Positions 17,998-54,081 of a stretch of 64,000 nt of DNA are shown one piece after another. The position numbers were made by a program, and so were the translations under genes. Source of the stretch: Flexithrix dorotheae DSM 6795. GTDB taxonomy: Bacteria; Bacteroidota; Bacteroidia; Cytophagales; Flammeovirgaceae. A model generated the notes under the pieces. It did not search any database. It was not told the origin of the DNA and saw nothing but the letters and a program-made list of their open reading frames with translations. The stretch covers positions 124,427 to 188,426 of the forward strand of contig NZ_KB903432.1 of the NCBI RefSeq assembly GCF_000379765.1, read 5' to 3'. How positions within the stretch are numbered: the first letter of the stretch is position 1; every line of letters starts with the position of its first letter.

Positions 17998-18035
17998 TTC
18001 CCTGTTATTGAAGGTTTGCTAATTATTTAATAAGA

Positions 18036-21000
18036 TTATTTCTGGGTTGAACTGGCTGCAGATTCATTTTTCAATTCATTTTCCTCCTCCTTTAATCCCA
18101 GCTTTTTGATCAGGTTTTCGATCTTCTTTTCCCTTTTGCTCTGTTTCTCTTCTTTTCCCCATTCCCGAAAATCTTTCACCATGATAAAGGCAATTCCCAT
18201 ATTTACCAATTCCCCATCGAAAGTATCGTATGAATTTTCTCTAAATCCTTTTAGCCGATAGCGGCCGTCCTCTGTGAGTTTGTAAATTATGGCGACATCT
18301 GCATCTATGCCTGAGGATTGTTTTTCATTGGGATTTTCTTCCCCTTCCAAATCAAAACTTCCCCCAACCTCAATTTCAAGTCGGTCATTCATAAATTCTT
18401 TTGAGACTTTTACATCGAGCTCGGTTTTAGTTTGGGCCTGTCCTCCGGAATAATCATCATAAGTATCGAGACCGAAACTTAAATCTACACCCTGAATGTA
18501 TTTTCCGGAAAGTTTATTGAGTTGGTCAGCTAACATGCCATTCACACTATTTCTGGCTGCAGAAGTGGCCATGCTGGTTGTGGATTGATTAGAAGCCACC
18601 GGAACTTCGGAAATAAACCCACCCAATACCAATAGGGCAAAAACCTGTTGGTTTCTTTTAGATTCGTAGTTGGGATCGTCCAACATGTTCAGTTTGTTAG
18701 CCACTGTGGGATATTTCACTCTGTATTCCTTTTCCAGCCCTATTCCAAAGCGGATATTAGGCTCCATGAGTTCTCCATTAATATCAATTTCTACCGTAAA
18801 GGGTAATTTCTGTCTATAGATATTTTGCTGGCTTTCATCATTACCAATCTCATTGGCTATCAGCTCAAGGGAGGAGGTTTTCACTTCATACAAACAGGAA
18901 ATATTGGCCTCGGCATCCAACACATCCCCTGTCCAGCTGATAAAACTTCCCTCTGCAATTTGAAATTCCTTTTTCACCAATCCATAAAAAGAAAGCAAAT
19001 ATTCCCCACGGGTAATTTCATACCTTCCTGTAAGCGTCATGTTTCCACTTTTGTTCATCAGAAAGTTTAGATGGCCTCCACCCACTACCTTGGCGTAATC
19101 TCCGGACTTTGGATCGATTACTACACCAAACTGAGCTTCTTTATCAATATCAATTACCGTATTAAGTTCAATTCCTGTGAAGGTAGGAATGATAGTATCA
19201 TTGGCGGAAATTGTCGGGTTGAAATTGTAATTAAAAGTAGTATCTCCTGCTTCACTTACGTTTCTGAATTCCACAATATCTTCATCGGAAATCATATCAA
19301 ATTCTTCAGGAGGAAGAACATAAGTCATATCTGTGCCTTCATCTATAGAAATATTTCCTTTCACTACGGGTAAATCCATGTTACCGGTAATATCCAGGTC
19401 AGTTCCCATCACAAACTTCCCATAAAATTCATCATTATCTTCTTTGGTGCTGTTTATCACCTGAAAATCTTTGGCATTAATATTCAGGTCAAAATCAAAA
19501 TCTGTATAATTTTCAGTGATTAAATATCCATCTACACTCAGCTTGTTATCTTCCCGGTCCTTTAAGGTGAAATTCTGAAATTCTATTCCTTGTTCATCCA
19601 ACACAATTTTTTCATTATCCATTTTAAATAAAGTGTTGATCATGGTAGGATTTAAAGTAGCTTCTCTAAAGTTCAACATCCCGGTGACAAATGGCTTTTG
19701 AGCGGTTCCTTGAGCCTCTAAATTTCCGGTAATTAAACCATTCATTTCCTTCAGGTTGCCAAGGGTGAGCGGCTCAAGTGTTTTTAAACTAAGTTGATTG
19801 ATATCCACATCGAAATCAAAAATTCCTTCAATGGACTGATAAATACCAGCTATCTCCAGATCATTCTTATCATTTTTCAAAGCCATATCTATAGCGATAT
19901 TGTGGTTTTCTTTATCGTCAGCGGAGAGACTTAATGTACCCAAATCAGCTTCAAGAAGGGCAAAATCAGTAATTTTAGAATCAACACTAAAATAGGATGA
20001 GGAGTCGGATGTCTGGTTCAGGTTTAAATCCAAATCGAGCATTCCGGTAATTAACTGGGTGTTGTACTTAGTGGTTTTGATGAGTTGAAAAAGATCGGAA
20101 AGATCAATGTTTTTGAGGTTCAGGTTTGTAATTTCCTCTTCTACCGCAAAATTGATAGCCGCATTTTCATGTGATATTTCTACGTATTCTGTTCTCAACC
20201 CTTCATCACTTATGTAAATGGCATTTTGTTCATTTACAGTCCAGGGATTATAATTCAGAATAAATTTTTCAGGCAGGAATTTAAATCGATATTCTTTTTC
20301 CAGCACTTCCAGATCACCTTCAATCTGATATTTATATTTCTTTTTTTCATCTTTCATTTTAAAACCCAGGGCGAGTTTTCCATTTCCCACGCTACCTCCA
20401 ATTTCCGGATAAGCCACCTGAAAAGAATCAATGGTGAGTTGGGAAAAGCCAACATTAAAATCGAGAATATCCTGACTTGTTTCCAATGCTACCAGAAAGG
20501 AATCAACTTCAATATCGGCATAATTTACTTTCGGAATATCAATATTGACGTCCAGTTTATTCTGATTACCCAAATAGGCTCCTTTTATATCTCCTATTTG
20601 AATTTTTTGAAGGTCTGGTACCAGAATGTCAGTTATAAAATCTTCTTCCAGAATCTGTACTTCAAAGTCAAAATTTTTCTCATTGAGCATTTCTTCCAAA
20701 GAATCTGAAGGATTGAGAAACCGGGAATAGGCCGCTTCTGCCACTTCCCCAAATTCCAGCAAATGAAAAGAAGCGTTGAGGTCAACGGTCATAAAATCAG
20801 AGATCAAATTAATATCTGATTTTCCTGGTTTTAGTGTAAAATCAAGGTCGGTGGTTTCAATGGGATATTTCCTTTTATTGGATACAATTACCAGTTCTGA
20901 AGCCTTCAACATTCCGTCCATAAAAGTGGAGTCCCGTAGGTGTACTTCAGAATTAATTTTTCCTTTAATGGAGGTTTCCGCCTGTTGTAAATTCAGCGCA

Positions 21001-23192
21001 AAAAAATCGATATTTCTTAAATCTATATCCAGGTAAAGTGCTGTATCTTTCTCCTGCATAGAAAGGCCAGTGGTGAATGAAAAATCGAGGGGTTGATTTT
21101 TCGAAGTGATTTCCGCATTCAGGGAATCACCAAAATAATTGGCTAGAATGTCTAAATCCCTGTAATTGTATTGGTTGTAAAGAAACTGGATGATGGAGGC
21201 CTCTAGTTTTATATTGGGTTTTTCTGTGGTAATATTTTTTCCTATTACTTCGGCATTTAAGGAAACAGGCCCTATAGTTTCATCTTCTAAAAACTCACCA
21301 AATTTAAAATCTTCCAGGTCGAGATTGAAGTCAAGGAAATCGGTGTTTCTGGTAGTGTCCATTTCAAAAGAAGTGATGGATCGAATTAAACCAAAATTGG
21401 AATGAAATCGGGTTTCTGCTTCCAGACTATCTGGTTTTCCCGAAGCACTAGCCTGCAAATTGATGAAGCTGGGAAGGTTTAATGGATTGGTAATGGAAGT
21501 ATCATTGATAATGGCCAGTAAGTCCTTTTGGGTGCTATGGAGAGAATCGATATAGTATTCAAACCTTAGGGCATTAATATCAGGCAAGCCTTTTACCTCT
21601 CCGTGGCTAATAAATTTAGTCTCATCGAAAGTATAAAAGTTAAATTTTTCCAGTTCAAAATCACTGATTTTTCCCGTTCCTTTAATATCAAGAGCAATAT
21701 TTTTCTCCAAATTTCCACCTATGGTTGGCACACTGTCCAGGTCGGGCGCAAAATAAATCAGATCTTTGAAGAAGAGTTTCGTTTGGTCAATTTCAAAATC
21801 CAGCAAAATGTCTTCTGGTTGAGCGGTGAGGGATTTAAGATCTGGGTAAGTAGCCTTTAAATTTGCATGGAACTCACTATTGAAAGTAAGGAGTTCAAGG
21901 TTTTGAAGGGCTAATTTCTGATGGTTAATAGAAAATTGTGTAGCTATGTTGTTGATGCCAAAACCACTTTTTTCCATTACAGAAAAATTTTCCAGAATAA
22001 ATTCTACCTTTTCCCTGTCGGCCAGCAGATGCCTAAACTCAAGGCTGAAATTTTTAAATTCAATATGAGAAGGATCAAAACCCTTGTTTACTGGTGTAAC
22101 ATTGTGATCATTATATTTAATGGTGTTGTTTTCCAGCTTCAACTCATTCATTTTTACAACCCAGCCGAAATCTAAAGAAATCGGTGAAGCAGATGCTGTA
22201 GAATCCAAAGAAATATCACTTTCTGCTATTTGAAGCTGAGATGAATCTTGAACAGGTAACATTGCCTGATCGAATTGAACCAGGGAATTTTTCAAGTTCA
22301 GTTTACCCAAATTCAGCTCCTGTTTATTCAGGTCAATTTTACCGGGAAGAAATGCCAATTCATTCAAATTAAGTAGCAGATTCTGGCCAGCAGTTTTTTC
22401 CTGAAATCTGAAATTGATGTCTTGAAGATTTAGTTCGGTTAGCCCCAGATGTGGTAAAGCTGACTCATCTTCGATAGAGGGACTTTCAGTTTTTTCTTCT
22501 TCCAAAGGTTGGTTACCAGTAGATTTTTCTCCTAGTACTAAAGAGGATTTTATGCCATTAATGCTAATTTGATCGACCAGAAAAGTGTTTTCCAGCAAAG
22601 AAGTCTCCTCAAATTCGATTTCCAGTTCATTTAAATGGAAATCGAAATCAGTAGCTTCCAGATAGTCGGAATAGGTAAAATTAATTTTTGACAGGATAAT
22701 ATCATCAATTCCTACATCAAAGGAGCTTTGAGCAGTATCTTCCACGGTGGTTGTATCTTCACTGGAAAATGCATCAATTACAAATTGGTAGTTGAAATTC
22801 GTGTCATTTTCTATTCTATAAATATGACTTGTCAATTGTTCCACAGAAAAATAGTCCACCTGAGCTCGGCTATTAAACAAAGCATAAAAATCTAGATTTA
22901 CGGCAATTTCCCCTGCATATAATAAGGTATCCTTTTGTAAGTCTTCTATATAAATGCCTTCCAGGGCAACAGCTTTAGGAAAGTTCAATTTAATCCCTCC
23001 AACTTCTACTTTGGTTTTTAGGGTTTCTTCCAAATAATTGGTGGCCGTTTGGGTAAGGTAATTCTGAATGTAGGGAATACGAATGAGTATGACTAGCAAC
23101 AGCAGGAGGGATATAACCGCACCAACTATCCATAAAAATACCCGGAAAAGCTTTTTAAGCCAGTTAGGTAATTTTTCAGTTAATTTATCCAT
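18036..23192 (-). CDS. tamB: TamB-family translocation/assembly protein (copy 1)
   Basis: This 1718-residue protein has one N-terminal membrane anchor (about residues 15-40), a long periplasmic repeat-rich beta region of AsmA-like type (NYLEETLKTKVEVGGIKL early on), and a C-terminal TamB (DUF490) domain from about residue 1250, including GDYAKVVGGGHLNF, GRYEITRGEYLLSFYG and LTEDGRYRLKGF. TamB-type proteins form a lipid-conducting groove bridging inner membrane and outer-membrane TamA/TamL. It is followed directly by tamL, as expected for a TAM pair. The length is somewhat above E. coli TamB (about 1260). The last 45 residues are a charged coiled tail. Confidence 0.9.
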   Translation of the reverse strand: MDKLTEKLPNWLKKLFRVFLWIVGAVISLLLLLVILIRIPYIQNYLTQTATNYLEETLKTKVEVGGIKLNFPKAVALEGIYIEDLQKDTLLYAGEIAVNLDFYALFNSRAQVDYFSVEQLTSHIYRIENDTNFNYQFVIDAFSSEDTTTVEDTAQSSFDVGIDDIILSKINFTYSDYLEATDFDFHLNELEIEFEETSLLENTFLVDQISINGIKSSLVLGEKSTGNQPLEEEKTESPSIEDESALPHLGLTELNLQDINFRFQEKTAGQNLLLNLNELAFLPGKIDLNKQELNLGKLNLKNSLVQFDQAMLPVQDSSQLQIAESDISLDSTASASPISLDFGWVVKMNELKLENNTIKYNDHNVTPVNKGFDPSHIEFKNFSLEFRHLLADREKVEFILENFSVMEKSGFGINNIATQFSINHQKLALQNLELLTFNSEFHANLKATYPDLKSLTAQPEDILLDFEIDQTKLFFKDLIYFAPDLDSVPTIGGNLEKNIALDIKGTGKISDFELEKFNFYTFDETKFISHGEVKGLPDINALRFEYYIDSLHSTQKDLLAIINDTSITNPLNLPSFINLQASASGKPDSLEAETRFHSNFGLIRSITSFEMDTTRNTDFLDFNLDLEDFKFGEFLEDETIGPVSLNAEVIGKNITTEKPNIKLEASIIQFLYNQYNYRDLDILANYFGDSLNAEITSKNQPLDFSFTTGLSMQEKDTALYLDIDLRNIDFFALNLQQAETSIKGKINSEVHLRDSTFMDGMLKASELVIVSNKRKYPIETTDLDFTLKPGKSDINLISDFMTVDLNASFHLLEFGEVAEAAYSRFLNPSDSLEEMLNEKNFDFEVQILEEDFITDILVPDLQKIQIGDIKGAYLGNQNKLDVNIDIPKVNYADIEVDSFLVALETSQDILDFNVGFSQLTIDSFQVAYPEIGGSVGNGKLALGFKMKDEKKKYKYQIEGDLEVLEKEYRFKFLPEKFILNYNPWTVNEQNAIYISDEGLRTEYVEISHENAAINFAVEEEITNLNLKNIDLSDLFQLIKTTKYNTQLITGMLDLDLNLNQTSDSSSYFSVDSKITDFALLEADLGTLSLSADDKENHNIAIDMALKNDKNDLEIAGIYQSIEGIFDFDVDINQLSLKTLEPLTLGNLKEMNGLITGNLEAQGTAQKPFVTGMLNFREATLNPTMINTLFKMDNEKIVLDEQGIEFQNFTLKDREDNKLSVDGYLITENYTDFDFDLNINAKDFQVINSTKEDNDEFYGKFVMGTDLDITGNMDLPVVKGNISIDEGTDMTYVLPPEEFDMISDEDIVEFRNVSEAGDTTFNYNFNPTISANDTIIPTFTGIELNTVIDIDKEAQFGVVIDPKSGDYAKVVGGGHLNFLMNKSGNMTLTGRYEITRGEYLLSFYGLVKKEFQIAEGSFISWTGDVLDAEANISCLYEVKTSSLELIANEIGNDESQQNIYRQKLPFTVEIDINGELMEPNIRFGIGLEKEYRVKYPTVANKLNMLDDPNYESKRNQQVFALLVLGGFISEVPVASNQSTTSMATSAARNSVNGMLADQLNKLSGKYIQGVDLSFGLDTYDDYSGGQAQTKTELDVKVSKEFMNDRLEIEVGGSFDLEGEENPNEKQSSGIDADVAIIYKLTEDGRYRLKGFRENSYDTFDGELVNMGIAFIMVKDFREWGKEEKQSKREKKIENLIKKLGLKEEENELKNESAASSTQK

Positions 23193-31473: not shown

Positions 31474-32130
31474 TTATTCCTGTTTTTTTAAAATTCCTAA
31501 TTCCAGTGCAAAATGGACGAAATCGGTGGGTGATTTTATGCCTAATTTTTTGATAATATTTTTTCTATGGGTATTAATAGTATGAGGACTAAGATTTAAA
31601 TCATTGGCAATTTTTTGGGTAGAGTTTCCTTCTGCTACTAACTTCAAAACTTCAGTTTCTCTTGCAGAAAGGCTGGTAGGAAGGCAGTTTTCATTTTCCT
31701 CTTCCTGATGTTTAAATAATAGAAGGTCAAAAATTTTGTTGCAATAAAACTTTTCTTCCCGGCTGACTGCTAAAATTGCCGATTCTATTTCTTCCAGACT
31801 GCAATTTTTGGTAATATATCCTTTTACTCCTGCTTCCAGAACCTTTAAAATCTGCTTTTTATCATTATCGGAAGAAATAACCAGGACTTTTAGTTTGGGA
31901 TATTGCCTGATGAGTTTGGCAAGAAAATCTGGCTTACAAAAATCTTCATAGTTATAGTCTATGATGAGTAGGGAATCGTTTTTGGTTCTAATTAATTCCT
32001 GAAGATTACTCGCTGAAATACTGTTTGAAATAAGTTTAAAAACTTTTTTTTGGCTCAGTAAATGGCTAATAGCCAAAAAAGTCAATGGCTGGTTATCTGC
32101 TAGTATTACATTGATGTGCTCCTTTGACAT
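31474..32130 (-). CDS. NarL/LuxR-type response regulator
   Basis: This 218-residue protein has an N-terminal receiver domain with acidic pocket residue D12, likely phospho-acceptor D58 (LLIIDYN), and conserved K108 (GYITK). The C-terminal LuxR-type HTH (about residues 155-215) carries LSARETEVLKLVAEGNSTQKIANDLNLSPHTINTHRKNII. The receiver is somewhat degenerate around the acidic cluster (usually two acidic residues, here A11-D12). No histidine kinase gene is adjacent, so the cognate kinase is elsewhere. It is divergent from the sensor-propeller AraC regulator, with 233 bases between their starts. Confidence 0.88.
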   Translation of the reverse strand: MSKEHINVILADNQPLTFLAISHLLSQKKVFKLISNSISASNLQELIRTKNDSLLIIDYNYEDFCKPDFLAKLIRQYPKLKVLVISSDNDKKQILKVLEAGVKGYITKNCSLEEIESAILAVSREEKFYCNKIFDLLLFKHQEEENENCLPTSLSARETEVLKLVAEGNSTQKIANDLNLSPHTINTHRKNIIKKLGIKSPTDFVHFALELGILKKQE

Positions 32131-32363: not shown

Positions 32364-35201
32364 ATGGAAAGAAAACTTCTTTGGCAAATGCAGGCACTGC
32401 TCATTTGGATATTGATATTTATCCAACAGTGTTTATTTGCGCAAAAGAAGTTGGATTTCATGCAATTGCCTATCGAAGGCCTGTCCCATCCGACTGTAAC
32501 TTGTATTTTCCAAGATAAAACAGGTTATCTCTGGCTGGGAACACTCAGTGGATTGAATCGATTTGATGGAAAAAATTATCTGGTTTTTAAAAATGGGGAA
32601 AGTTCCCAAAATAAATTTGTAAACGATCATATCACTGCCCTTCAGGAAGACAACGAGGGGAATCTTTGGGTGGGGACCAAATATGGTCTGTATAGATTTA
32701 ATAGGGATCGTACAAAAATCAGGAGTTTTAATTCCGGGAATACCGCATTGCCAAACCAACAGATTGAAACCATTTTGAAGGACCATGAAGGGAAAATCTG
32801 GGTGGGTAGCTGGGGAGGTTTGAGTTATTTCGACACAGACACCGAAAAGTTTCACACTTTTTCAAATGATTCTACAAATAGTAAATCACTAAGTGGAAAT
32901 GTGGTGAGCAAAATTATGGAGGACAGCCAGCGGCAGTTGTGGGTTGGGACGGCATTTTCTGGTTTAAATTTATTCCATTCAGAAAGTCAGACTTTTAAAA
33001 GATTCCAATATGAAACCCAAAACCCCACTACACTTAGTGGGAATAATATCAGTTCGCTTTATGAGGATGCCATGGGTAATATTTGGGTTGGTGCCCAGAA
33101 TAAAGGGCTCAACAAGTATAATCCCAAAAGCGGAAATTTTACCCGTTATCAGAAGGAAGAAAAATCAGTCAGCCTGCCGAGCAATACTGTCTATTCTATT
33201 ATTGAGGATGAGGAAGGGAACCTGATGCTAGGAGGGATGAATGGTGGAATAAGTCTTTACAATTATTATACAGACAATTTTTCCCGGTACGATACAGAAG
33301 GAAATTATAATCCATTTGGAAGTAAAGCCAGTGTGTATTGCCATTATAAACTGAATACGGGGGAAGTGGCTATTGCCACCTCTAATGGAGGGGTAAAAAT
33401 TCAGAATCATTACACCAAAAACATAAGTCTTTTTCAGCACAATCCTGAAAACGAAAACAGCTTGAGCATGAATAATGTGGCTGCAATAGCAGAGGGCCAA
33501 AATGGGGAAATATGGCTGGGAACTTTAGGAGGAGGACTTAACAGATTTGATCCTGAAAAAGGACAATTTCAAAGCTTTCAGCAAACAGATGAATTTCATC
33601 AGAATTATTTGAAGGATAAAACGGTGAATTGTATTCTTCCGGAAGGTGAAAAACTCTGGCTGGGCACTTTAGAAAATGGACTAGTATTATTTCAACAGAA
33701 TGAGTTTCAATATTTTGATTTAGGAAGTGACCATAATACCGTAACGGCATTGTTAGAGACTGATGAGGGTAATTTATGGGTTGGTACTGATTTGGGAGTC
33801 TATTTATTTGAAGTAGCGAAAGGTGAATTTAAACGTCCAGCGATGAAAAATATCTTTGCGGAAATGGGTAAAGTAGCCACTCTGAAAAGCGGAGCAGGAG
33901 GTTTCTTATGGATTGGAACAGAAACAGGATTATATAAAGTAGAGAAGCAAAATTTAAATATTCATAAGTTAGAACAATACAAAAAAAACCACATTAATTA
34001 CATTTATGAAGACAGTCATGGGCGTTTATGGGTTTCTTCTCTGGGTAATGGATTGACCATTTTAAAAGAAAATATTGCTCAACCCGTGAAATTGGTGGAA
34101 GGCAAAGGAGTGTTCGAAGGAATTGTCTCCAATATTCTGGAAGATTCGGAAGGTTTTTACTGGATTACTTGTTCCGGAGGTTTGTTAAAATGCCAATGGA
34201 ATGAAGAAATCCGGGAATTGGAAATTCTTAAAAAGTTTGATGAACACGATGGTCTTCAACCAGGGAGTTTTAATGCCAATACTGCAACCATTACCAAATC
34301 CGGAAAGATTATGCTTGGAGGACTTAAAGGTTTAAATATTTTTGATCCTATCCATTTGAAATATAATCCCAATCCACCACCTGTGGTGTTTACCTCAGTA
34401 AAAGCTAACGGGAAGGATTTGACAGTTGGTGAATTTTCTTCCCTGAATTTAAAGATTAAGGAAGCTTCCAGTCTGGATATTTCCTTTGCGGCCCTCAATT
34501 ATATTCATCCTAATAAAAACCAATATGCATATAAATTGGATAATTATGATGAAAGCTGGCATTACACTAATAATGAAAGTCAGGTTTCATATGATAATTT
34601 GGAACCGGGAAAGTATTCATTTAAGGTAAAGGCTTCCAATAATGACGGGATCTGGAATGAGCAAGGAATTATCCTGAACCTGAATATTTATCAATCTTTT
34701 TGGCAATCCTCTTTATTTCAGGGAATTGCACTTTCTATGTTGGTCGTGCTCATGGGTATTTCCTATTTCTATTTTGATAATCAGAAAAAGCAAAAATCTA
34801 CCTTCGCTTCTTATCAAATGTCGGATTTATCCGAATCTTCCTTTTCTTCCGAGGAAAAAGATCAAAAAAGCGAAGAAGCTGTTTTTTTGGAAAATGCAAT
34901 CCTGCTTGTTCAGCAAAATTTGCCAAATCACGAGTTTTCCATAAATGACATGTGCATCGAACTTGGTGTTAGCCGAGCTCAATTGTTCCGAAAAATTAAA
35001 AAACTATCTGGACAATCCGTAGCTGATTTTATTAAAGGCATTCGGCTGGAAAAAGCGCGACAACTGCTGGAGAATGGTTCATTTTCCATAGGGGAAGTAG
35101 CTGATGAAACAGGATTTAAATCTCATTCGCATTTTTCCAGGTTATTTAGGGAAAAGTTTGGCAATTCCCCCTCTACATTTATTAAAAATAACAAAGCTTA
35201 G
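32364..35201 (+). CDS. Membrane AraC regulator with Reg_prop sensor, lacking a kinase
   Basis: This 945-residue protein resembles a Bacteroidota hybrid two-component sensor with the kinase and receiver removed. After an N-terminal signal/anchor (about 8-26) come many Reg_prop propeller repeats (motif LWVGT and variants, residues about 30-670), a Y_Y_Y domain (YAYKLDNYDESW to PGKYSFKVKA, about 690-775), one membrane helix (about 784-808), a Ser/Glu-rich linker, and an AraC HTH domain (about 842-945, ending HSHFSRLFREKFGNSPSTF). No HATPase or receiver sequence is present. It should bind an extracytoplasmic ligand and regulate DNA directly, in the manner known for B. thetaiotaomicron SusR. The target genes are not evident. 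Confidence 0.88.
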   Translation: MERKLLWQMQALLIWILIFIQQCLFAQKKLDFMQLPIEGLSHPTVTCIFQDKTGYLWLGTLSGLNRFDGKNYLVFKNGESSQNKFVNDHITALQEDNEGNLWVGTKYGLYRFNRDRTKIRSFNSGNTALPNQQIETILKDHEGKIWVGSWGGLSYFDTDTEKFHTFSNDSTNSKSLSGNVVSKIMEDSQRQLWVGTAFSGLNLFHSESQTFKRFQYETQNPTTLSGNNISSLYEDAMGNIWVGAQNKGLNKYNPKSGNFTRYQKEEKSVSLPSNTVYSIIEDEEGNLMLGGMNGGISLYNYYTDNFSRYDTEGNYNPFGSKASVYCHYKLNTGEVAIATSNGGVKIQNHYTKNISLFQHNPENENSLSMNNVAAIAEGQNGEIWLGTLGGGLNRFDPEKGQFQSFQQTDEFHQNYLKDKTVNCILPEGEKLWLGTLENGLVLFQQNEFQYFDLGSDHNTVTALLETDEGNLWVGTDLGVYLFEVAKGEFKRPAMKNIFAEMGKVATLKSGAGGFLWIGTETGLYKVEKQNLNIHKLEQYKKNHINYIYEDSHGRLWVSSLGNGLTILKENIAQPVKLVEGKGVFEGIVSNILEDSEGFYWITCSGGLLKCQWNEEIRELEILKKFDEHDGLQPGSFNANTATITKSGKIMLGGLKGLNIFDPIHLKYNPNPPPVVFTSVKANGKDLTVGEFSSLNLKIKEASSLDISFAALNYIHPNKNQYAYKLDNYDESWHYTNNESQVSYDNLEPGKYSFKVKASNNDGIWNEQGIILNLNIYQSFWQSSLFQGIALSMLVVLMGISYFYFDNQKKQKSTFASYQMSDLSESSFSSEEKDQKSEEAVFLENAILLVQQNLPNHEFSINDMCIELGVSRAQLFRKIKKLSGQSVADFIKGIRLEKARQLLENGSFSIGEVADETGFKSHSHFSRLFREKFGNSPSTFIKNNKA

Positions 35202-35455
35202 GCAAAAAACTGCAACTTGTTTTTCAACCGAGATTCACCCGGACTCGGTAATATTGTGCGTATTTAAATTTATTAACAAATCACCCCCAACCTTTAAAAT
35301 TCTTTTCAGTAAATATCAACAAATACTTTTTGGCCTTATACCTTCCAGCTATAGTTATAAACAACCGTTTTTACAATTGATGGGCAACTGATCACCCATT
35401 ACTAATACAATTCTAAAATAACACAATTTCTCATATCTATTTAATCGGTCTAATC

Positions 35456-35881
35456 ATGGCACTACGTCTACATTTTGGAATTATAGCCCTTTTATTAATT
35501 TGTTTGGGTAATGCGGTTTCTGCACAGGAAAATACTTTTGCAAGTAATAAAAAAACTGATGGTTTCAAACCGAAGCAAACCTTAAATAAAAGCTTTGCCA
35601 ATTCAGCGTGGTTAGTCAATTATTCGGAAATTAAAAGGAATATTGCCTATCCGGAAGCGTGTCGAAAAATGGGAATCGAAGGAACAGTAATATTAGCTGT
35701 TTTTATTTCTGCAGATGGACGTTTGAAAGAGCGAAAAGTCGTAAAATCTCCCCATCAAAAAATGAGTGAGGAATGTCTAAGACAAGTAAAATACATGCAC
35801 TTGTTGCCTGCAAAGGATATACATGGCAATACTTATGACTCCTGGATTTATATTCCTGTGAAGTTCCATTTAGCCTTCTAA
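35456..35881 (+). CDS. Secreted TonB C-terminal-domain protein
   Basis: This 141-residue protein has a Sec signal peptide ending in VSAQ (about residue 23) and a TonB_C-like domain over residues about 55-138 (IAYPEACRKMGIEGTVILAVFISADGRLKERKVVKSP ... YIPVKFHL). It lacks the inner-membrane anchor and Pro-rich stalk of a full TonB, so it is unlikely to energise receptors by itself; short periplasmic TonB_C proteins are common in Bacteroidota and may act as adaptors. A strong terminator follows the gene. Confidence 0.8.
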   Translation: MALRLHFGIIALLLICLGNAVSAQENTFASNKKTDGFKPKQTLNKSFANSAWLVNYSEIKRNIAYPEACRKMGIEGTVILAVFISADGRLKERKVVKSPHQKMSEECLRQVKYMHLLPAKDIHGNTYDSWIYIPVKFHLAF

Positions 35882-35978: not shown

Positions 35979-38525
35979 TTATAATCGGATACCCAAAAAT
36001 GTGATATCATCACGTTGATCGGCCCCGGTCTGATGTTCATCTAATTCTCTTTCAAAATGTAATTTCTGTTCGTAAGTTGGACGTTTGGCATATCTTTCAA
36101 TTAATGAACTTAGTCGTTTCGTACCAAATCGTCTTCTTTTATTATTAGCGGCATCGATGATACCATCTGTGGTGAGGTAAATCATCTCGCCTTTTTCTAC
36201 TTCAAGTTGATGTACATTAAAAGTGTGATCAGCCTCTTTTTGCCAACCACCAATAGATTTTCTATCCGGAGAAAGTTTAGTGATTTTCCCCTCATTTGAG
36301 CGGTGGAATAAGGGACATTTGGCACCGCTAAATTTTAAATCAATTTTTCCATTACCCAAATCTTCCAGGCAACAAAGCCCTACGTCCATCCCATCTACAT
36401 TATTGGAATCTCTTTGTTTTAAGGCTTCTCTTACACTGTAGTGAAGGGTTTCCAATATTTTTTCTGGGGAATAAATATCCTTTTTATTTACAATCTGATT
36501 AAGCAGTGTATTCCCAATCATGGACATAAATGCTCCAGGAACACCATGCCCGGTACAATCAACAGCAGCAATAAAAGATTTATTTTCCACTTTGCTAAAC
36601 CAGTAGAAATCACCAGAAACCATATCTTTTGGTTTGTAAATCACAAAATGACTATCAAACACATCATCCAGAGTAGTTTCTGCCGGAAGAATGGCATTTT
36701 GAATTCTCTCCGCATATTTGATACTATCAGTAAGCCGGGAGTTTTTGTCTTCTAGCTCAGAATAGGCAGATTCAAGGTTTTGGTTTTGCTCTTTTACTTT
36801 ATTCTCACTTTCTTTTAGCTTGGAAATTGCCTTTTTTAATACAACTTCACTACTTGAAAGCTTTTTATTTAATTCTTCCAGCTCCAATTGTCTTTGCTTC
36901 ATGGCTTCCTGGGTGGCTTCCAGCTCTTCCATATTTTGCCTCAATTCCTCTTCACTCGACTGGAGTTCCTCATTTTTTTCTTTAATTTCCTGAGCCTGAT
37001 GGGTTAGCTTTTTATTGGCCTTATTTCTTTGAACAAAACCATATAAAATAATCAGGACTACAAAGCCGGTTCCTATGATAATACCAATGAATATTTTTTG
37101 AGTTCTTTGTTCTTCTAAAAGCACCTGGTCCTGAAGCTTTTTTTCCGTTTCCAACAATTCAAATGCTTTTTGTCTTTCTTTTTCCTGCAATTCTTTCTCC
37201 CGGAGAGCGGCTTCCTGCAAAACTTTTTCCTGTTGAAGCGAGATCAATTCCTGGTCGCTTTTTTGTTTTTCCAACTGTTGGTTGGCTATTTGAAGTGCCT
37301 GCTGCACTCTCTTTTTTTCCAGCGCCTGATTGGCCAGTCTGGTTTCCTGTAATTCCTTCTCCCTGGTTACAAGGGCCAGTTGTTGTTTTTGAAGTTCAAG
37401 TTCTTTAGCTTTTTTCTCCGCTTCAAGTTCTGCCTGTTTTAAAGCAAGTTCCTGCTCTCTTTTTTTGCTGATAGATTCTTTTATCAGGTTTTCATTTTTT
37501 TCTGCCTCAATTTGTTTGGCAATAAACTGTTTTCTTTCCTCTTCTGCAGCCGCATCCAATTCATCATTTAATTTAATGTGATTTTTATATGCTTTTTGAG
37601 AGGCAAGAAAATCCCCTTCTGCATTGTATATCTCAGAAAGAATTTTATAACTGTCAACTAAGGTTTCTTTAGAGTTTATAGCTTCTCCAATTTCGATGGC
37701 TTCTTCAATTTCCAATTGGGCCTGAGGGTTATTTCCATTTAAATAATGAAGTGCACCCAAGTAATTGTAAACCTCTGCCTGACGAACAGAATCATTTTGA
37801 GCTTTATAAATTTGTAAGGCCTCCTGGTAACTTCGAATGGCTTCAGCAGTATTTCCTAAGAATAAATAGGAACTTGCTAAATTAATTTTAAAGGCTCCTT
37901 TCTGTTGGGAAAGAGGAAGGTTTTCTTCCTGATTAACTTGCTCCTGGTTAATTTCAAGGGCTTTGGTGAATTGAACCTTTGCTTCTTCTAGTTTATTCTC
38001 CTTTTTATACAAATACCCAAGGTTATTATGAGCTTTTGCAATTGCCAATTTATTATCAGAAAGTTGATTTTCATTTAAAATTTTTTCGTAATTCTTGATG
38101 GCCTCACCTACATTTCCATCTTCCAGTTGGAGGTCAGCAATTTTCTGGGTAAAAGTGTTTTGCTGGTTTTTACTATTATTTTTAATGGCCAGAGCTAATC
38201 CTTTGTTAAAGTTTTCAAGCGCCTTTTCATGTTGGCTTAATTTAACATAATTATCTCCAACTAAATCATAAATTTTCATATCTTCCTGAAAATTAACATG
38301 GTTCCCTTCTGTAGAAAAGGATTGCAAAAAGTAATCATTAGCTTTTTCCAGGGCTCCATCCAGTTGGAAATTATAGGCGATAAGTCGTGCTATTTTTGAT
38401 TTCTCCTGAGTGGTTTCTGCATTGGAATAATTTTCCATCAAATCAGGTAAAGATTGTGCATTTACCTGAACAATAGAAAAGATTAAACTAAGTAAGCTTA
38501 AGATTCCGATTTTATAATAATTCAT
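35979..38525 (-). CDS. TPR-coiled-coil SpoIIE-type protein phosphatase, membrane-bound
   Basis: This 848-residue protein has a signal peptide (residues 1-23), TPR repeats at about 60-320, a long Glu/Gln/Lys-rich coiled coil (about 325-475), one membrane helix (about 478-500), a second coiled coil to about 610, and a SpoIIE-type PP2C Ser/Thr phosphatase domain to the C-terminus, with GDFYWF and D-C-T-G-H-G motifs carrying the Mn/Mg-binding Asp. The TPRs are predicted periplasmic and the phosphatase cytoplasmic, a signal-transducing layout. Possible targets are anti-sigma or anti-anti-sigma factors; none is nearby. It follows the TonB receptor gene by 59 bases on the same strand. Confidence 0.9.
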   Translation of the reverse strand: MNYYKIGILSLLSLIFSIVQVNAQSLPDLMENYSNAETTQEKSKIARLIAYNFQLDGALEKANDYFLQSFSTEGNHVNFQEDMKIYDLVGDNYVKLSQHEKALENFNKGLALAIKNNSKNQQNTFTQKIADLQLEDGNVGEAIKNYEKILNENQLSDNKLAIAKAHNNLGYLYKKENKLEEAKVQFTKALEINQEQVNQEENLPLSQQKGAFKINLASSYLFLGNTAEAIRSYQEALQIYKAQNDSVRQAEVYNYLGALHYLNGNNPQAQLEIEEAIEIGEAINSKETLVDSYKILSEIYNAEGDFLASQKAYKNHIKLNDELDAAAEEERKQFIAKQIEAEKNENLIKESISKKREQELALKQAELEAEKKAKELELQKQQLALVTREKELQETRLANQALEKKRVQQALQIANQQLEKQKSDQELISLQQEKVLQEAALREKELQEKERQKAFELLETEKKLQDQVLLEEQRTQKIFIGIIIGTGFVVLIILYGFVQRNKANKKLTHQAQEIKEKNEELQSSEEELRQNMEELEATQEAMKQRQLELEELNKKLSSSEVVLKKAISKLKESENKVKEQNQNLESAYSELEDKNSRLTDSIKYAERIQNAILPAETTLDDVFDSHFVIYKPKDMVSGDFYWFSKVENKSFIAAVDCTGHGVPGAFMSMIGNTLLNQIVNKKDIYSPEKILETLHYSVREALKQRDSNNVDGMDVGLCCLEDLGNGKIDLKFSGAKCPLFHRSNEGKITKLSPDRKSIGGWQKEADHTFNVHQLEVEKGEMIYLTTDGIIDAANNKRRRFGTKRLSSLIERYAKRPTYEQKLHFERELDEHQTGADQRDDITFLGIRL

Positions 38526-38584: not shown

Positions 38585-40924
38585 TTATTTCAACTCAAAG
38601 TTTAATCCGAAATAGTAGGCTTGTTTTATAGGATCGGTATTATAATATTCTGGAAGATCAGAATTGGAGAGATCCCTTACTGAAGCAAAAAATGACACTT
38701 GTCGGTTTATATCGTAGGCAACTTTTGCATTTAATACAATTCTGTCTCCTGTTTCATATTGGTTTCTTATTCCATTTGGCTCATAGGATTGATTTCCCAT
38801 AAAATACGCATTCAGATTAACTGAAAGGTTTTTCATCGGTCTGTAATTCAAGTAAAATCCACCGAACCACCCCGGAGTAGCAAGGTTTTCATTATCTTCT
38901 GTATTCTCAAAATGGGTATCCTGAGGTTTATCAGCAAAGAAAGACTGGTAAGCCTGAGTTGAAAAATATGGAGAATAGTCATTAATTGTAGTTTTTTGGA
39001 AAGTTGCAAAAGGTCTTAGCCAAAAGTTTTTTCCTGTGTAGGTTAATGAAAAGGTAGTTCCAATCTGCTCTGCAGTCATGGGCAAACTTCTAAATTTTTG
39101 GTTTACAGCTGCAAATGGTACGGAATAGGAAAGGTCTAACACAATATCTTCTTTTATAGAGGCTCTATGGTTTGACAATAACCCTCTAAAAATTTCCAAA
39201 TCCAAGGATAATTTTTCTTTGATTTTAGCGCGGGCACCTACTTCAAAAATGGTTTGACTTATAGGAACTAAATCCTTGTTTCCACTGGTAATATTAAAAG
39301 CCGGCACATAATTTCCCCCTCCAATGTCAACTGAAGTAGGTTCAACCAGATTAACCTGAGAATCTATAATTGATTGACTTGAGTTTGCTTTGGCTACGTT
39401 TGCCCGAAGAATTACATTAGTATTTAACTTAAATGTGGAAGAAAAATGGTATGAGTAAAAAATGTCTTTATTCAGGTTAGAAAACTGGTCGGCTCTAATA
39501 GAACTTACAAACCTTAGTTTATCATTCAATAATCTATAATCTCCCCTTAGTGCAAATGCAGGATTATCAATCTTAGAACCAGGAGAAATAATGCTAAAAG
39601 GTGGAACAAAAGTTCTGGCCATTGCCAGTTCCAAACCCGATTCGAAGGGGAGGGAAGGATCAAGATTGCCTGTTACTGCATTTACTGTTTTATCAAAGGA
39701 ATCCAGAATTCTGCTGTCATCTACATCGTGACTATACTGAGCTAAACGATAACTAAATGAAGGCGTTAAAGTCAGGTTTTTCAGTACTTGAACGGGATAT
39801 TCTACATCCAGATCTAAAAAATCAAAATCATAAGTATAAATTATTCCTTTGATAGGATCCTGAGTTCCCTTTTGATAAGAGGCTTTTATTCTTCCATTAA
39901 AAATTCTGGTCTCGGTATCCATATACCAAGACTCAGAGGACATTTTTGTGATAGGGGTGGAAAAATTCGGGTAAATTACTTTATTAGAAAAAGTATTTTC
40001 ATATCCGGATTTAAGGGAAAAAGAAACAGCCTTCACAGGTTTATATTCCATAAAAGCATTTACTCCCTTTTTATCAAGGGATACGTGGCTGTTTTGAAAT
40101 ATTTGATCGGCTCCCTGCTGGCTGGAAATAATTCCACTGAAATAATTAAGCTCATTCGCGGCTACGTATTGGGAATCGCCTCTTGAGAAATATAAATCAT
40201 GGGTCCTTTCCCTGTACTCCCTGTTCCCAGAAACAATCACGGAAAATTTTTCGTTTGCCTGATAACCAACAGCCATATTGGCAATGGTAGAATTAAATGA
40301 ACCCATTTGCACATTGGCATTGGCAAACAAGCCATCCTTTTTGGTTTTGTTGGTAATAATATTAATTACACCAGTTACTGCATTTGGTCCAAACATGGAA
40401 GCCGCAGGTCCTCTGACTACCTCTATTCTTTCAATGTCATTTAATCCAATGGGGAAGGCTTCCCAAAATGTATTTCCCTGCAAATAATTATATACAGGTC
40501 GTCCATCAATCATTACCAGAGATAATTTATTTAATCCATTTAACGCCCCCTCCGTTCCGTGTTTGGGCAACCAGTCCATTCCTCTAATTTGGATATTGTA
40601 AACACCATTGGTCATTTGCCTCACAATAACCCCTGGAACAAGTCTCATTGCTTCCATCACATTGGTTACTCCTGAAGCTTTAATTTCCTCTTTAGTTAAT
40701 ACTGAGGCTGATAGAGGGGCTTCAAAAAGACTTTCTGCTTTTTTTGAGGCGGAGACAATTTCCTGATCGTAGTTGGTTTTCCTTGGAATTTCAAGCAATT
40801 CATTCACATCTATCTGATAGGTGGGAACTTCTTTTTTTGATTCCTGGAAATTTTGTGAAAATGCAAAGTTTAGCTGGATTAGCAACACAATGGTAAAATA
40901 CCTTCTCATATCTTTAGTTTTCAA
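38585..40924 (-). CDS. TonB-dependent outer-membrane receptor
   Basis: This 779-residue receptor has a signal peptide ending in AFSQ (about residue 24), no carboxypeptidase-like N-domain, a plug domain at about 60-190 (ASVLTKEEIKASGVTNVMEAMRLVPGV ... IERIEVVRGPAASMFGPNAVTGVINIIT), and a 22-strand-type barrel ending FGLNFELK. It imports an unidentified ligand (iron chelate, vitamin or small carbohydrate are the usual options). No SusD gene is adjacent, so it is not a SusCD glycan importer. An alternative ATG lies five codons in. It probably forms an operon with the downstream SpoIIE phosphatase. Confidence 0.92.
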   Translation of the reverse strand: MKTKDMRRYFTIVLLIQLNFAFSQNFQESKKEVPTYQIDVNELLEIPRKTNYDQEIVSASKKAESLFEAPLSASVLTKEEIKASGVTNVMEAMRLVPGVIVRQMTNGVYNIQIRGMDWLPKHGTEGALNGLNKLSLVMIDGRPVYNYLQGNTFWEAFPIGLNDIERIEVVRGPAASMFGPNAVTGVINIITNKTKKDGLFANANVQMGSFNSTIANMAVGYQANEKFSVIVSGNREYRERTHDLYFSRGDSQYVAANELNYFSGIISSQQGADQIFQNSHVSLDKKGVNAFMEYKPVKAVSFSLKSGYENTFSNKVIYPNFSTPITKMSSESWYMDTETRIFNGRIKASYQKGTQDPIKGIIYTYDFDFLDLDVEYPVQVLKNLTLTPSFSYRLAQYSHDVDDSRILDSFDKTVNAVTGNLDPSLPFESGLELAMARTFVPPFSIISPGSKIDNPAFALRGDYRLLNDKLRFVSSIRADQFSNLNKDIFYSYHFSSTFKLNTNVILRANVAKANSSQSIIDSQVNLVEPTSVDIGGGNYVPAFNITSGNKDLVPISQTIFEVGARAKIKEKLSLDLEIFRGLLSNHRASIKEDIVLDLSYSVPFAAVNQKFRSLPMTAEQIGTTFSLTYTGKNFWLRPFATFQKTTINDYSPYFSTQAYQSFFADKPQDTHFENTEDNENLATPGWFGGFYLNYRPMKNLSVNLNAYFMGNQSYEPNGIRNQYETGDRIVLNAKVAYDINRQVSFFASVRDLSNSDLPEYYNTDPIKQAYYFGLNFELK

Positions 40925-41396: not shown

Positions 41397-43886
41397 TTAA
41401 TTTTTTACTAATTCTCTTACTGCCAGCCCTAAAAACATAAAGTTACTGGCTCCTCCTCCCATTACATATTCGGATTGTTGCCAGAAAAAGGGCCATTTTT
41501 TTAATTCGGGTAAGTCAGGCCGAATTAGTCCGGTACCAGACCCAACACCACCTGGGATAAATCCCCAATCACCCCTGTTAATACCATAAGCTGTTTCCAA
41601 AGAATTTGCTCCAACTCCCGAAGCATAGGAGACTGTGTTTTCACCCGGATGATTCCCCAATATAAAATTAAATGCATTATAAACATTTTCTTTGGGGAAA
41701 ATGTCCGGCCAGCCCTGGTGTAAGAAGTAGTATTGAAATCCCAGCCGCTGAATGTCCCAGCCGCTTCCCCAGATATAAGGTGTATAGGGAATACCAAAAG
41801 GATTCTCTTTGTTTTGTTTGGCTACTACTTCAGTGAATTCTGCAGCTGAAGCTGCCATCATTTTTGAAAATTTCTTGTCATTCAAAAGGGGAATAACTCG
41901 TCCTAAAACCCAACCTGACCTGGAAAAATTCTTTTTGAAATTATCGCTATTTTCAATTATAACTTTTTTATAAGCTTCTTTTTTGGTGGTGAGATACAAC
42001 TCTGAAACAGCGAGCAATTTATTATTTCGGGCTCTTCTTGTGGTATCATCTTTTAAGTTTTCCCATAAGGCTTCAGCTGCCTCCAGGCATTCTGAGGAAA
42101 GTTTAGGATTAAAATCTTTCAAAACCCTTGAGGCAGCAGCAAGTCCCTTAACCACGTGCAACTCTCTGGAAGGATTTTCTTCAGTGAAAACAAGGCGATC
42201 ATCCCGAACCCCTGATTCGTGGGCAGTAACTTCTTTTTCCCCAAGGTTAGGATTATACTTTCTGTTGTCAGTCATGACAGAACCATCTCCCAACAGCACG
42301 TACTGTCTTAAATCCGGGCAAATTATGCCCCTATACAAGCGTCCTAAATTCTGATAACTCCCAAGTACAGTCAATATTCCGTGTTCAATTTGCTGTAACA
42401 TATCTGGTTTGCCATCGGGCTGATGCAGTTCTACAATTTTATTGGTTTGGTCAATCAATGTTTCATCATAAGTTTCCCTGAATTGCTCGTAGGCAAGTGA
42501 TAAAATATAAACTGTCCCTATTTGTGATTCTACCCTTAAATCGTAATCTCCTGCATCGTGCCAGCCTCCTACATTTAATCCGGGAACCTGTTCATAAGGT
42601 TTGTATTTGGTTAAAGTGGAGGAACCCTGAATATATCCGTCAAAATGGTTATGGTCCGTGGGGGCCATTAAAGCATCATCCATATGGCAGAGTCCATGCC
42701 ACACCCTGTAGCGGTCATTTACACGCATATGGCACATCTGCACAGGCAGGAAATATTCTAACGTTGGTTGCCAAACATGTCTCTCATAAATGTCAGTTCC
42801 AATTTTAAAAGGTTGGCTTTTGTAAGCGCCATATTTAATTTGGTATATTCCTGGGGTCTTGATTTCATCAAAATTAAACTGATAATAATTGTATCTTAAA
42901 TATGGACCCCAAAGCTGGGCATCACTGGTTTTGATGACTTCAGGCTTATCATCCGACATTTTTAGCAACTCAAAATTAGCCACTTCAGTTTCGTGCTTAT
43001 CCAGTTCAACTACTGCCATTTTTGGTTGGGATGGATGATAACCCAATTGCGATAAATGAATTACTGGCTGCGATTTAAAATTAGGGATTGCATTCGGTGT
43101 AATTTTCCACTGGATGGCATTTTTCGTTTTTCCATCAGGAAAAGCGGTTCTTACATTATACCAACCATTATTGTGTTGGGCTCTTCCATCCAGAAGCTCG
43201 AGTTCTCCATCAAGGGTTTCTATCACCAAGCGCTGTGTTTCCAATTCCGGAGCAATCACAAGTTTTTTTCCGGTAGCTAAAGGGGTATTTTGAAAAACAC
43301 CATCAGTATCAGGATACATTGGCCCGTTCAATTGTCTTGGAAAAATCCCTGTTTTTTCATCCAGAATATAAGATTTTCCATATAATAAGCCGGGAAACAA
43401 TTCCAGATTAAAGCCAACTTTTCCTATCCATTCTTTAGGTAAAGGCTTTTCCAAATCTACTGAAATTAAAATAGCTGCCCCTTCCGTGCTTACCCGAATA
43501 TCATAGCTAAATTCTAAATCAGGATAATCCACAGGGTTAAAACCTTTGCGGTTTTTGGATTCATCAGGGTAAGATAAATTGACAGAGATCTCACTGGTTT
43601 CCGTATTGACTTCACGGCCATTCATTTTAGGAACGGGCTGCCATTGCCCTGGGGTAGCTTCCAGTCTTACATCTCCATTGGCGGCTACTCTGGTTCCATT
43701 CTGGATAATGGTGACTCCGCCCTGATGGCCTTCAGGATAAAAATCGTGAAAAGCCATTACATTTACTCCTTGTTTTTCAAAATATTCCTGTTCATTGAGT
43801 ATAAATCCCTCATGCTGTTGGCCTGATGCAATAAAGGCAATACCCAGGCTAATGATTAATGATATTATTTTTAAAGGTGATTTCAT
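41397..43886 (-). CDS. Glycoside hydrolase family 9-like secreted enzyme
   Basis: This 829-residue secreted protein has a signal peptide ending near SGQ (about residue 24), about 250 residues of beta-rich N-terminal sequence, a CelD_N-like immunoglobulin domain (about 275-370), and a GH9 alpha/alpha barrel. Catalytic features include the GGWHDAGDY motif with D444 and D447 (usual base and helper Asp) and E806 in QQSEYVMGG as probable acid. The family's conserved active-site His (P-H-x-R) is replaced: the region reads AYGINRG. It may be a divergent endoglucanase or exo-glycosidase rather than a cellulase. I chose the ATG at 43886 because it gives a better signal peptide than one seven codons upstream. 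Confidence 0.85.
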   Translation of the reverse strand: MKSPLKIISLIISLGIAFIASGQQHEGFILNEQEYFEKQGVNVMAFHDFYPEGHQGGVTIIQNGTRVAANGDVRLEATPGQWQPVPKMNGREVNTETSEISVNLSYPDESKNRKGFNPVDYPDLEFSYDIRVSTEGAAILISVDLEKPLPKEWIGKVGFNLELFPGLLYGKSYILDEKTGIFPRQLNGPMYPDTDGVFQNTPLATGKKLVIAPELETQRLVIETLDGELELLDGRAQHNNGWYNVRTAFPDGKTKNAIQWKITPNAIPNFKSQPVIHLSQLGYHPSQPKMAVVELDKHETEVANFELLKMSDDKPEVIKTSDAQLWGPYLRYNYYQFNFDEIKTPGIYQIKYGAYKSQPFKIGTDIYERHVWQPTLEYFLPVQMCHMRVNDRYRVWHGLCHMDDALMAPTDHNHFDGYIQGSSTLTKYKPYEQVPGLNVGGWHDAGDYDLRVESQIGTVYILSLAYEQFRETYDETLIDQTNKIVELHQPDGKPDMLQQIEHGILTVLGSYQNLGRLYRGIICPDLRQYVLLGDGSVMTDNRKYNPNLGEKEVTAHESGVRDDRLVFTEENPSRELHVVKGLAAASRVLKDFNPKLSSECLEAAEALWENLKDDTTRRARNNKLLAVSELYLTTKKEAYKKVIIENSDNFKKNFSRSGWVLGRVIPLLNDKKFSKMMAASAAEFTEVVAKQNKENPFGIPYTPYIWGSGWDIQRLGFQYYFLHQGWPDIFPKENVYNAFNFILGNHPGENTVSYASGVGANSLETAYGINRGDWGFIPGGVGSGTGLIRPDLPELKKWPFFWQQSEYVMGGGASNFMFLGLAVRELVKN

Positions 43887-44270
43887 TTTCAAAATAATTA
43901 AATGCAAATAGATAAAAATTGATTTTTACTGTTTCAATTAAGGCTATGAAGAAAGGACCTTTATCTGGAATAAAACAGCATAATATTCAGTTGAAATGGG
44001 AATATTTGGATCTGAATTGAGATGATTATATTATTAATTTTACAGTTTGTACCGGATTAACCTGGATATTTTATCCAAATATTTTTTTGATGACAAATTG
44101 TACATCATTTTTTAACAAAACCTTCATATTTAATGATTTTGTGCCCTGAGGCTATCATAAAGCCCTAAAATATAATTGGTAATGGCAAATCTGCATTTCT
44201 GGTCTGCTAAACTTTCTTTTTCAATTCTTATACTTGAGCATTAATCGAGCATAAAACATTATTGAGGGAA
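43887..44270. other. Divergent intergenic region, no gene seen
   Basis: This 384-base AT-rich stretch separates the divergent GH9 and methyltransferase genes and should carry both promoters. I found no well-spaced Bacteroidota promoter pair and no strong hairpin; a GH9-controlling operator may be here but is not recognisable. Confidence 0.4.
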
Positions 44271-54063: not shown

Positions 54064-54081
54064 ATCCCAGACTTGCCTGGT

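Follow-up and report, generated by a model that had tools for sequence, protein, structure and literature searches.

A kinase-less propeller-AraC membrane regulator of Flexithrix dorotheae and its relationship to HTCS and SusR-like systems

Hybrid two-component systems (HTCSs) are a main class of glycan-responsive regulators in the Bacteroidota. Sensors of their propeller type bind oligosaccharides, are dimeric and change conformation upon binding, and HTCSs are predicted to bind DNA at direct repeats approximately 21 bp apart (Martens et al., PMC3243724; PMC5121618; Ravcheev et al., PMC3878776). All listed HTCSs carry a kinase and a receiver (PMC3878776), and the receiver keeps the DNA-binding domain off by means of an S/CHIP loop that contacts an Asp in alpha6 and a Lys in alpha8 (Gao et al., PMC11253607). 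This S/CHIP-DK REC-DBD lock motif is present in most HTCSs, not all, and in BT4124 its Asp and Lys are 39 residues apart (PMC11253607). A second described system is SusR, whose DNA-binding domain reportedly bears no significant resemblance to any known transcription factor (PMC3878776). The title of PDB entry 3ott, 'putative one component system BT4673', was considered as a precedent for a kinase-less form and rejected, because BT4673 is itself listed as an HTCS (PMC3878776). No published kinase-less propeller regulators were found in the open-licence literature. We know of no functional study of a kinase-less propeller-AraC protein; database annotation of the Reg_prop-Y_Y_Y-AraC architecture probably exists.

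The window analysed here is a 64,000-nucleotide stretch of Flexithrix dorotheae DSM 6795 (contig NZ_KB903432.1, positions 124,427 to 188,426), and its own coordinates are used below. An open reading frame with an ATG start at 32364-35201 (+ strand, as are all of its parts) encodes a 945-residue regulator. The protein begins with a signal-peptide-like hydrophobic segment (residues 1-27; 32364-32444) with a hydropathy of 1.68 at residues 8-26 and a model helix at 2-28, followed by two seven-bladed propellers that constitute the predicted periplasmic sensor (residues 45-660; 32496-34343) and by a Y_Y_Y domain (residues 674-775; 34383-34688). Hydropathy identifies just one further membrane segment, a transmembrane helix with a Lys-rich cytosolic flank (residues 784-802; 34713-34769; hydropathy 1.93). 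A short linker of 35 residues (803-837; 34770-34874) occupies the place where HisKA-HATPase-REC would sit, and leads directly into an AraC-type DNA-binding domain (residues 838-945; 34875-35198). Pfam matches are to Reg_prop (E 3e-54), Y_Y_Y (PF07495, residues 712-775, E 1.8e-17), HTH_18 (residues 864-941, E 1.1e-20) and HTH_AraC (E 4.7e-12), and the double helix-turn-helix of the HTH_18 match identifies the protein as a member of the AraC/XylS family. Neither HisKA, HATPase_c nor Response_reg is matched in the protein, even at an E-value of 0.1, although the same kind of scan detects HisKA, HATPase and REC in the HTCS paralogs of the same genome. The distance between the transmembrane helix and the DNA-binding domain is correspondingly different, 35 aa as against 434-492 aa in these paralogs (one further value, 326, looks like a mis-called transmembrane segment).

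An AlphaFold model built from five input sequences (mean pLDDT 67, which is moderate; pTM 0.45) contains 14 blades of four strands each, the strands of the Y_Y_Y domain, a helix at 783-814 and seven helices of the HTH domain. Confidence in the linker is low (pLDDT below 50 at 806-836) and it is mostly unstructured from approximately 815 to 836, a flexibility that is read from a model of moderate confidence with five sequences. When the sensor is compared with known structures, whether in sequence or in fold, the best matches are HTCS periplasmic domains, those of BT4663, BT3049 and BT4673, with 4a2l and 4a2m at the top of both comparisons; BT4663 (4a2l) matches in six stretches of sequence (E 2e-104) and in fold over approximately 780 columns. 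The best PDB match of the DNA-binding domain is likewise an HTCS protein, 12aw. The earlier note on this DNA, made from the sequence alone, had described a Reg_prop/Y_Y_Y sensor, one membrane helix and an AraC HTH with no kinase or receiver. The reading frame, Pfam matches, hydropathy and model all bear this out, and the search it proposed for a residual kinase found none (Pfam, E 0.1). The protein is thus a genuine one-component layout, with Y_Y_Y domain, transmembrane helix and AraC domain contiguous and no kinase insert between them.

The 9.5 Mb genome of F. dorotheae encodes approximately 20 HTCSs of the propeller type, together with several propeller sensor kinases, and the regulator is the sole kinase-less propeller/AraC protein found in it. 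Among 390 genomes of the order, contiguous kinase-less matches were found in this genome and that of a congener only. Draws from the class and from the phylum, 395 genomes apiece, together yielded three more cases, namely proteins of 1026 aa (G753), 752 aa (G554) and 334 aa (G742), the last being a Y_Y_Y-TM-AraC protein without propellers. A different picture is seen in the Bacteroidota family of G753 (f53), where the tail of the G753 protein was used as query in 201 genomes. At least 64 contiguous Y_Y_Y-TM-AraC places occur in 39 of these (the raw count of 41 includes two with the AraC part only), with open frames mostly of 690-1040 aa, three with an in-frame stop and a few truncated at contig ends. 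All survey counts outside the F. dorotheae genome are lower bounds, as five or seven candidates per genome were scored, and 13 in f53. Domain scans of 25 kinase-less proteins (20 from f53, together with the regulator, its ortholog, G753, G554 and G742) found HTH_18 in all 25, Reg_prop in 24 and Y_Y_Y in 24, and a kinase or receiver domain in none. Genes for GH127, GH31, GH2 and GH106 are frequent neighbours of the f53 genes, and alginate-lyase-like genes also occur beside them, which fits a role in glycan use. The survey of kinase-less HTCS-like proteins that the earlier note had called for thus shows the architecture to be unusual in its own order (two of 390 genomes) and, because of the 64 places in 39 of 201 f53 genomes, not unique in the Bacteroidota.

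Several unusual relatives were encountered in the course of these surveys. The G742 protein (L085:8495-13301, - strand) adjoins a 1270-aa Reg_prop-Y_Y_Y protein bearing a guanylate cyclase catalytic domain. Inspection by eye also identified propeller/Y_Y_Y proteins with other C-termini, including one with a short cysteine-containing tail (L131 in G828), one with an apparent transposase-like zinc-ribbon tail (L134 in G107) and one whose frame stops shortly past the transmembrane helix (L132 in G325); either of the latter two might be a disrupted gene. A kinase-less membrane AraC protein in G1176 (L169:200-1786, - strand), situated near a propeller-type one, has what appears by eye to be a periplasmic-binding-protein-like sensor, and suggests that there are kinase-less versions of BT1754-type HTCSs too.

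The relationships of the regulator point to the HTCSs. Full-length matches to its sensor (residues 8-801) in the same genome are HTCSs of 34% and 31% identity, both confirmed as Reg_prop-YYY-HisKA-HATPase-REC-AraC, the best matches of the DNA-binding domain in that genome are also HTCSs, and sensor and DNA-binding domain share the same close HTCS pair (L088/L090). A combined tree of the Y_Y_Y and DNA-binding domains (47 proteins, 318 columns) places the regulator and its ortholog (100/100) among the HTCSs of F. dorotheae and apart from the main f53 clade; most f53 proteins form a separate group, two are next to an HTCS, and G742 groups with two HTCSs. Five changes of the kinase-less label are needed on this tree, and a single clade for all kinase-less proteins is weakly rejected (p-AU 0.027). 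A tree of the DNA-binding domain alone, with five kinase-less proteins, does not reject a single origin (p 0.245), and its deep branches are weak. Because one origin of all kinase-less forms is weakly rejected, the kinase has probably been lost more than once, a conclusion to be read with the long branches and moderate p-value in mind. Our favoured interpretation, which we regard as probable, is that the regulator is a membrane-anchored one-component regulator derived from a propeller HTCS whose kinase and receiver were lost, in which a ligand-dependent change in geometry would act as the switch. It had been proposed that this could be an intermediate or a derived form. Derivation from an HTCS holds up, since both the sensor and the DNA-binding domain are closest to HTCSs, and an intermediate is unlikely in view of the position in the tree among HTCSs and the numerous kinase-less forms elsewhere in the phylum.

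The residues of the HTCS lock provide a further comparison, with the lock columns placed by alignment and by the 39-residue spacing of BT4124. Among 18 HTCSs with a HIP loop, the Asp is present in 17 and the Lys in all 18. The regulator lacks the S/CHIP loop, and it and its ortholog have Glu (E838) at the position of the Asp and keep the Lys (K877). In the 25 kinase-less proteins, which are related and hence not independent counts, the Asp is kept in 15, the Lys in 18 and both in nine, with Q, R or I replacing the Lys in seven. The proposal that every kinase-less protein loses the lock Asp was true of the first five and failed in this larger set. The constraint on the lock thus looks relaxed rather than abolished, and those residues that are kept are in line with descent from an HTCS.

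An unlikely alternative, though the most probable of those considered, is that the protein never contained a kinase and arose by independent fusion of a propeller/Y_Y_Y sensor, perhaps from a kinase-only protein, to an AraC domain. Taken alone, the Y_Y_Y segment does have its nearest match in L103, a kinase-only propeller protein encoded in the same genome (143 bits), and the deep branches of both trees are weak; such a fusion does not readily account for the full-length sensor and the DNA-binding domain both being nearest to HTCSs, including the same L088/L090 pair, nor for retention of K877, although a few non-HTCS AraC proteins here have Lys too.

Contig G012:C116 of the congener, a second species of the genus, encodes an ortholog that is 74% identical, has an identical layout at the junction of transmembrane helix, linker and HTH, and is likewise without a kinase; its N-terminus is missing because the contig begins inside the gene. 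This contig is apparently the same as the 9306-bp contig JAHQVQ010000161.1 of a Flammeovirgaceae MAG, so that one ortholog is counted, not two. Comparison of the two genes gives a dN of 0.17 and a dS of approximately 2.3, which is near saturation. Identity is 81.5% in the DNA-binding domain, with all 14 residues of the first recognition helix shared (100%), approximately 74% in the sensor, 59% in the linker and 48% in the transmembrane helix. The gene is under purifying selection, with the DNA-binding domain the most conserved part and the transmembrane helix and linker the least; a tether therefore fits better than a rigid coupler.

The regulator has no phosphorelay, and it lacks a receiver that could keep the DNA-binding domain inactive; control must therefore be by proximity, tethering or protein level. 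Under derivation from an HTCS, the two propellers and Y_Y_Y domain would be periplasmic, and would most likely act as a dimer that binds an oligosaccharide. In the most likely switch, which is also the simplest, binding would change how far apart the two Y_Y_Y/TM stems stand or how they are arranged, and the spacing of the stems would decide whether both tethered AraC domains can jointly occupy tandem sites, such that signalling would pass directly across the membrane. A linker that is flexible and little conserved speaks for proximity rather than for a rigid rod. The same linker, immediately past the transmembrane helix, would also suit regulated intramembrane or periplasmic proteolysis that frees the AraC domain, but neither a protease gene nor a recognised cleavage motif is seen nearby and the literature searched offers no precedent for the protein family, and we consider this explanation improbable.

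The regulator gene is divergent from that of an orphan NarL/LuxR-type response regulator (31474-32130, - strand), for which no kinase gene was found among the neighbouring ORFs scanned. A kinase or receiver acting in trans, for example through this adjoining response regulator or through heterodimers with the propeller HTCS/kinase paralogs, of which the genome has many with the same class of sensor, is quite improbable, as the regulator has no phospho-acceptor domain. On the other side is the tonB_C gene (35456-35881, + strand; PF03544), which encodes a small secreted TonB_C-domain protein of 141 aa and is the only neighbour conserved in the congener (L040), where the order of the two genes is kept; past it the two species differ in gene order. 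The intergenic region between regulator and tonB_C (35202-35455, + strand) is a candidate target promoter and aligns with that of the congener with a score of 109.5, compared with 66 +/- 7.8 for shuffles. A direct repeat in this promoter is not significant (37 of 60 shuffles are equally good). The tonB_C gene would be the best candidate for a target of the regulator. No SusC/D pair or glycoside hydrolase is found as an immediate neighbour, and sugar sensing by this member of the class thus rests on homology.

Among the other genes of the window, we note a TPR protein with a SpoIIE phosphatase domain that is SiaA-like (35979-38525, - strand), a TonB-dependent receptor beyond it (38585-40924, - strand), and a cellulase-like GH9 enzyme that carries a CelD_N domain (41397-43907, - strand), which is not immediately beside the regulator gene. 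Two modules of TamB (1718 and 1690 aa) and Omp85/POTRA (760 and 770 aa) genes, at 15715-23192 (- strand) and 48991-56385 (+ strand), lie in opposite orientation within the 64 kb and are apparently a paralogous TAM-like pair.

The narrow distribution within the order, in F. dorotheae and one congener among 390 genomes, would be consistent with a decaying or constitutively DNA-binding HTCS remnant with no sensory role. The strong purifying selection that the two species show on both sensor and DNA-binding domain (dN 0.17, dS approximately 2) and the intact propeller blades in the AlphaFold model make this very improbable. Removal of a kinase segment by an assembly or sequencing artefact, such as the frameshift or misassembly raised in the earlier note, is rejected as almost certainly wrong, because the open frame is continuous and the same junction, with no kinase in the linker of this close homologue either, is present in the independently assembled genome of a second species at 74% identity.

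More broadly, we propose tentatively, and as something that may well prove otherwise, that the Bacteroidota have repeatedly converted propeller HTCSs into membrane regulators of the one-component type, the kinase and receiver being deleted and phosphorelay control giving way to a spacing of two tethered AraC domains that the ligand sets. If true, such signalling from oligosaccharide to DNA would be a mode not yet described, alongside HTCS and SusR. A natural variant with the sensor and output of an HTCS and no phosphorelay raises the question of the kinase's purpose, and of whether DNA binding can be controlled by sensor geometry and nothing else. HTCSs and their kinase-less relatives offer a clean natural comparison, rather than an exotic one, of what a kinase adds to propeller sensors. 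There is also a consequence for annotation, in that kinase-less genes, of which some genomes have several, can be mistaken for broken HTCSs.

Of the systems with which the regulator can be compared, PorZ of type IX secretion (5m11) has neither a transmembrane helix nor a DNA-binding domain and is a surface component of secretion. The kinase-less Reg_prop-Y_Y_Y-TM-AraC proteins of the f53 type (G753, G554, G1122 and others) share the domain order, a similar length and the lack of a kinase, but mostly form a separate clade, are often encoded beside glycoside hydrolases and have linkers of 20-57 aa, many of which are charged and helix-like by eye. The HTCSs BT4663, BT4673, BT3049 and BT4124 share two seven-bladed Reg_prop propellers, a Y_Y_Y domain, one transmembrane helix and a C-terminal AraC-type domain, but have HisKA, HATPase and REC, approximately 450 aa, between the transmembrane helix and the DNA-binding domain where the regulator has 35 aa, and most have the S/CHIP loop and Asp of the lock where the regulator has no loop and a Glu. 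The regulator has the periplasmic sensor and AraC domain of an HTCS, and is by definition not an HTCS because the kinase, receiver and lock motif are absent. With the SusR-like regulators (SusR, BT3705, and SusR2, BT3091), whose binding sites are direct repeats spaced by 67 or 77 bp, it shares a periplasmic sensor, a transmembrane helix and a cytosolic DNA-binding domain (PMC3878776), a membrane layout evident from its hydropathy and domains. The likeness to SusR drawn in the earlier note is therefore sound for the layout and does not extend to kinship in the DNA-binding domain, which in SusR is described as unlike known families (PMC3878776) and here is of the AraC/HTH_18 type. The regulator is a SusR-like layout, one-component and membrane-spanning, built from HTCS parts, and SusR is an analogue of it rather than a relative in the DNA-binding domain.
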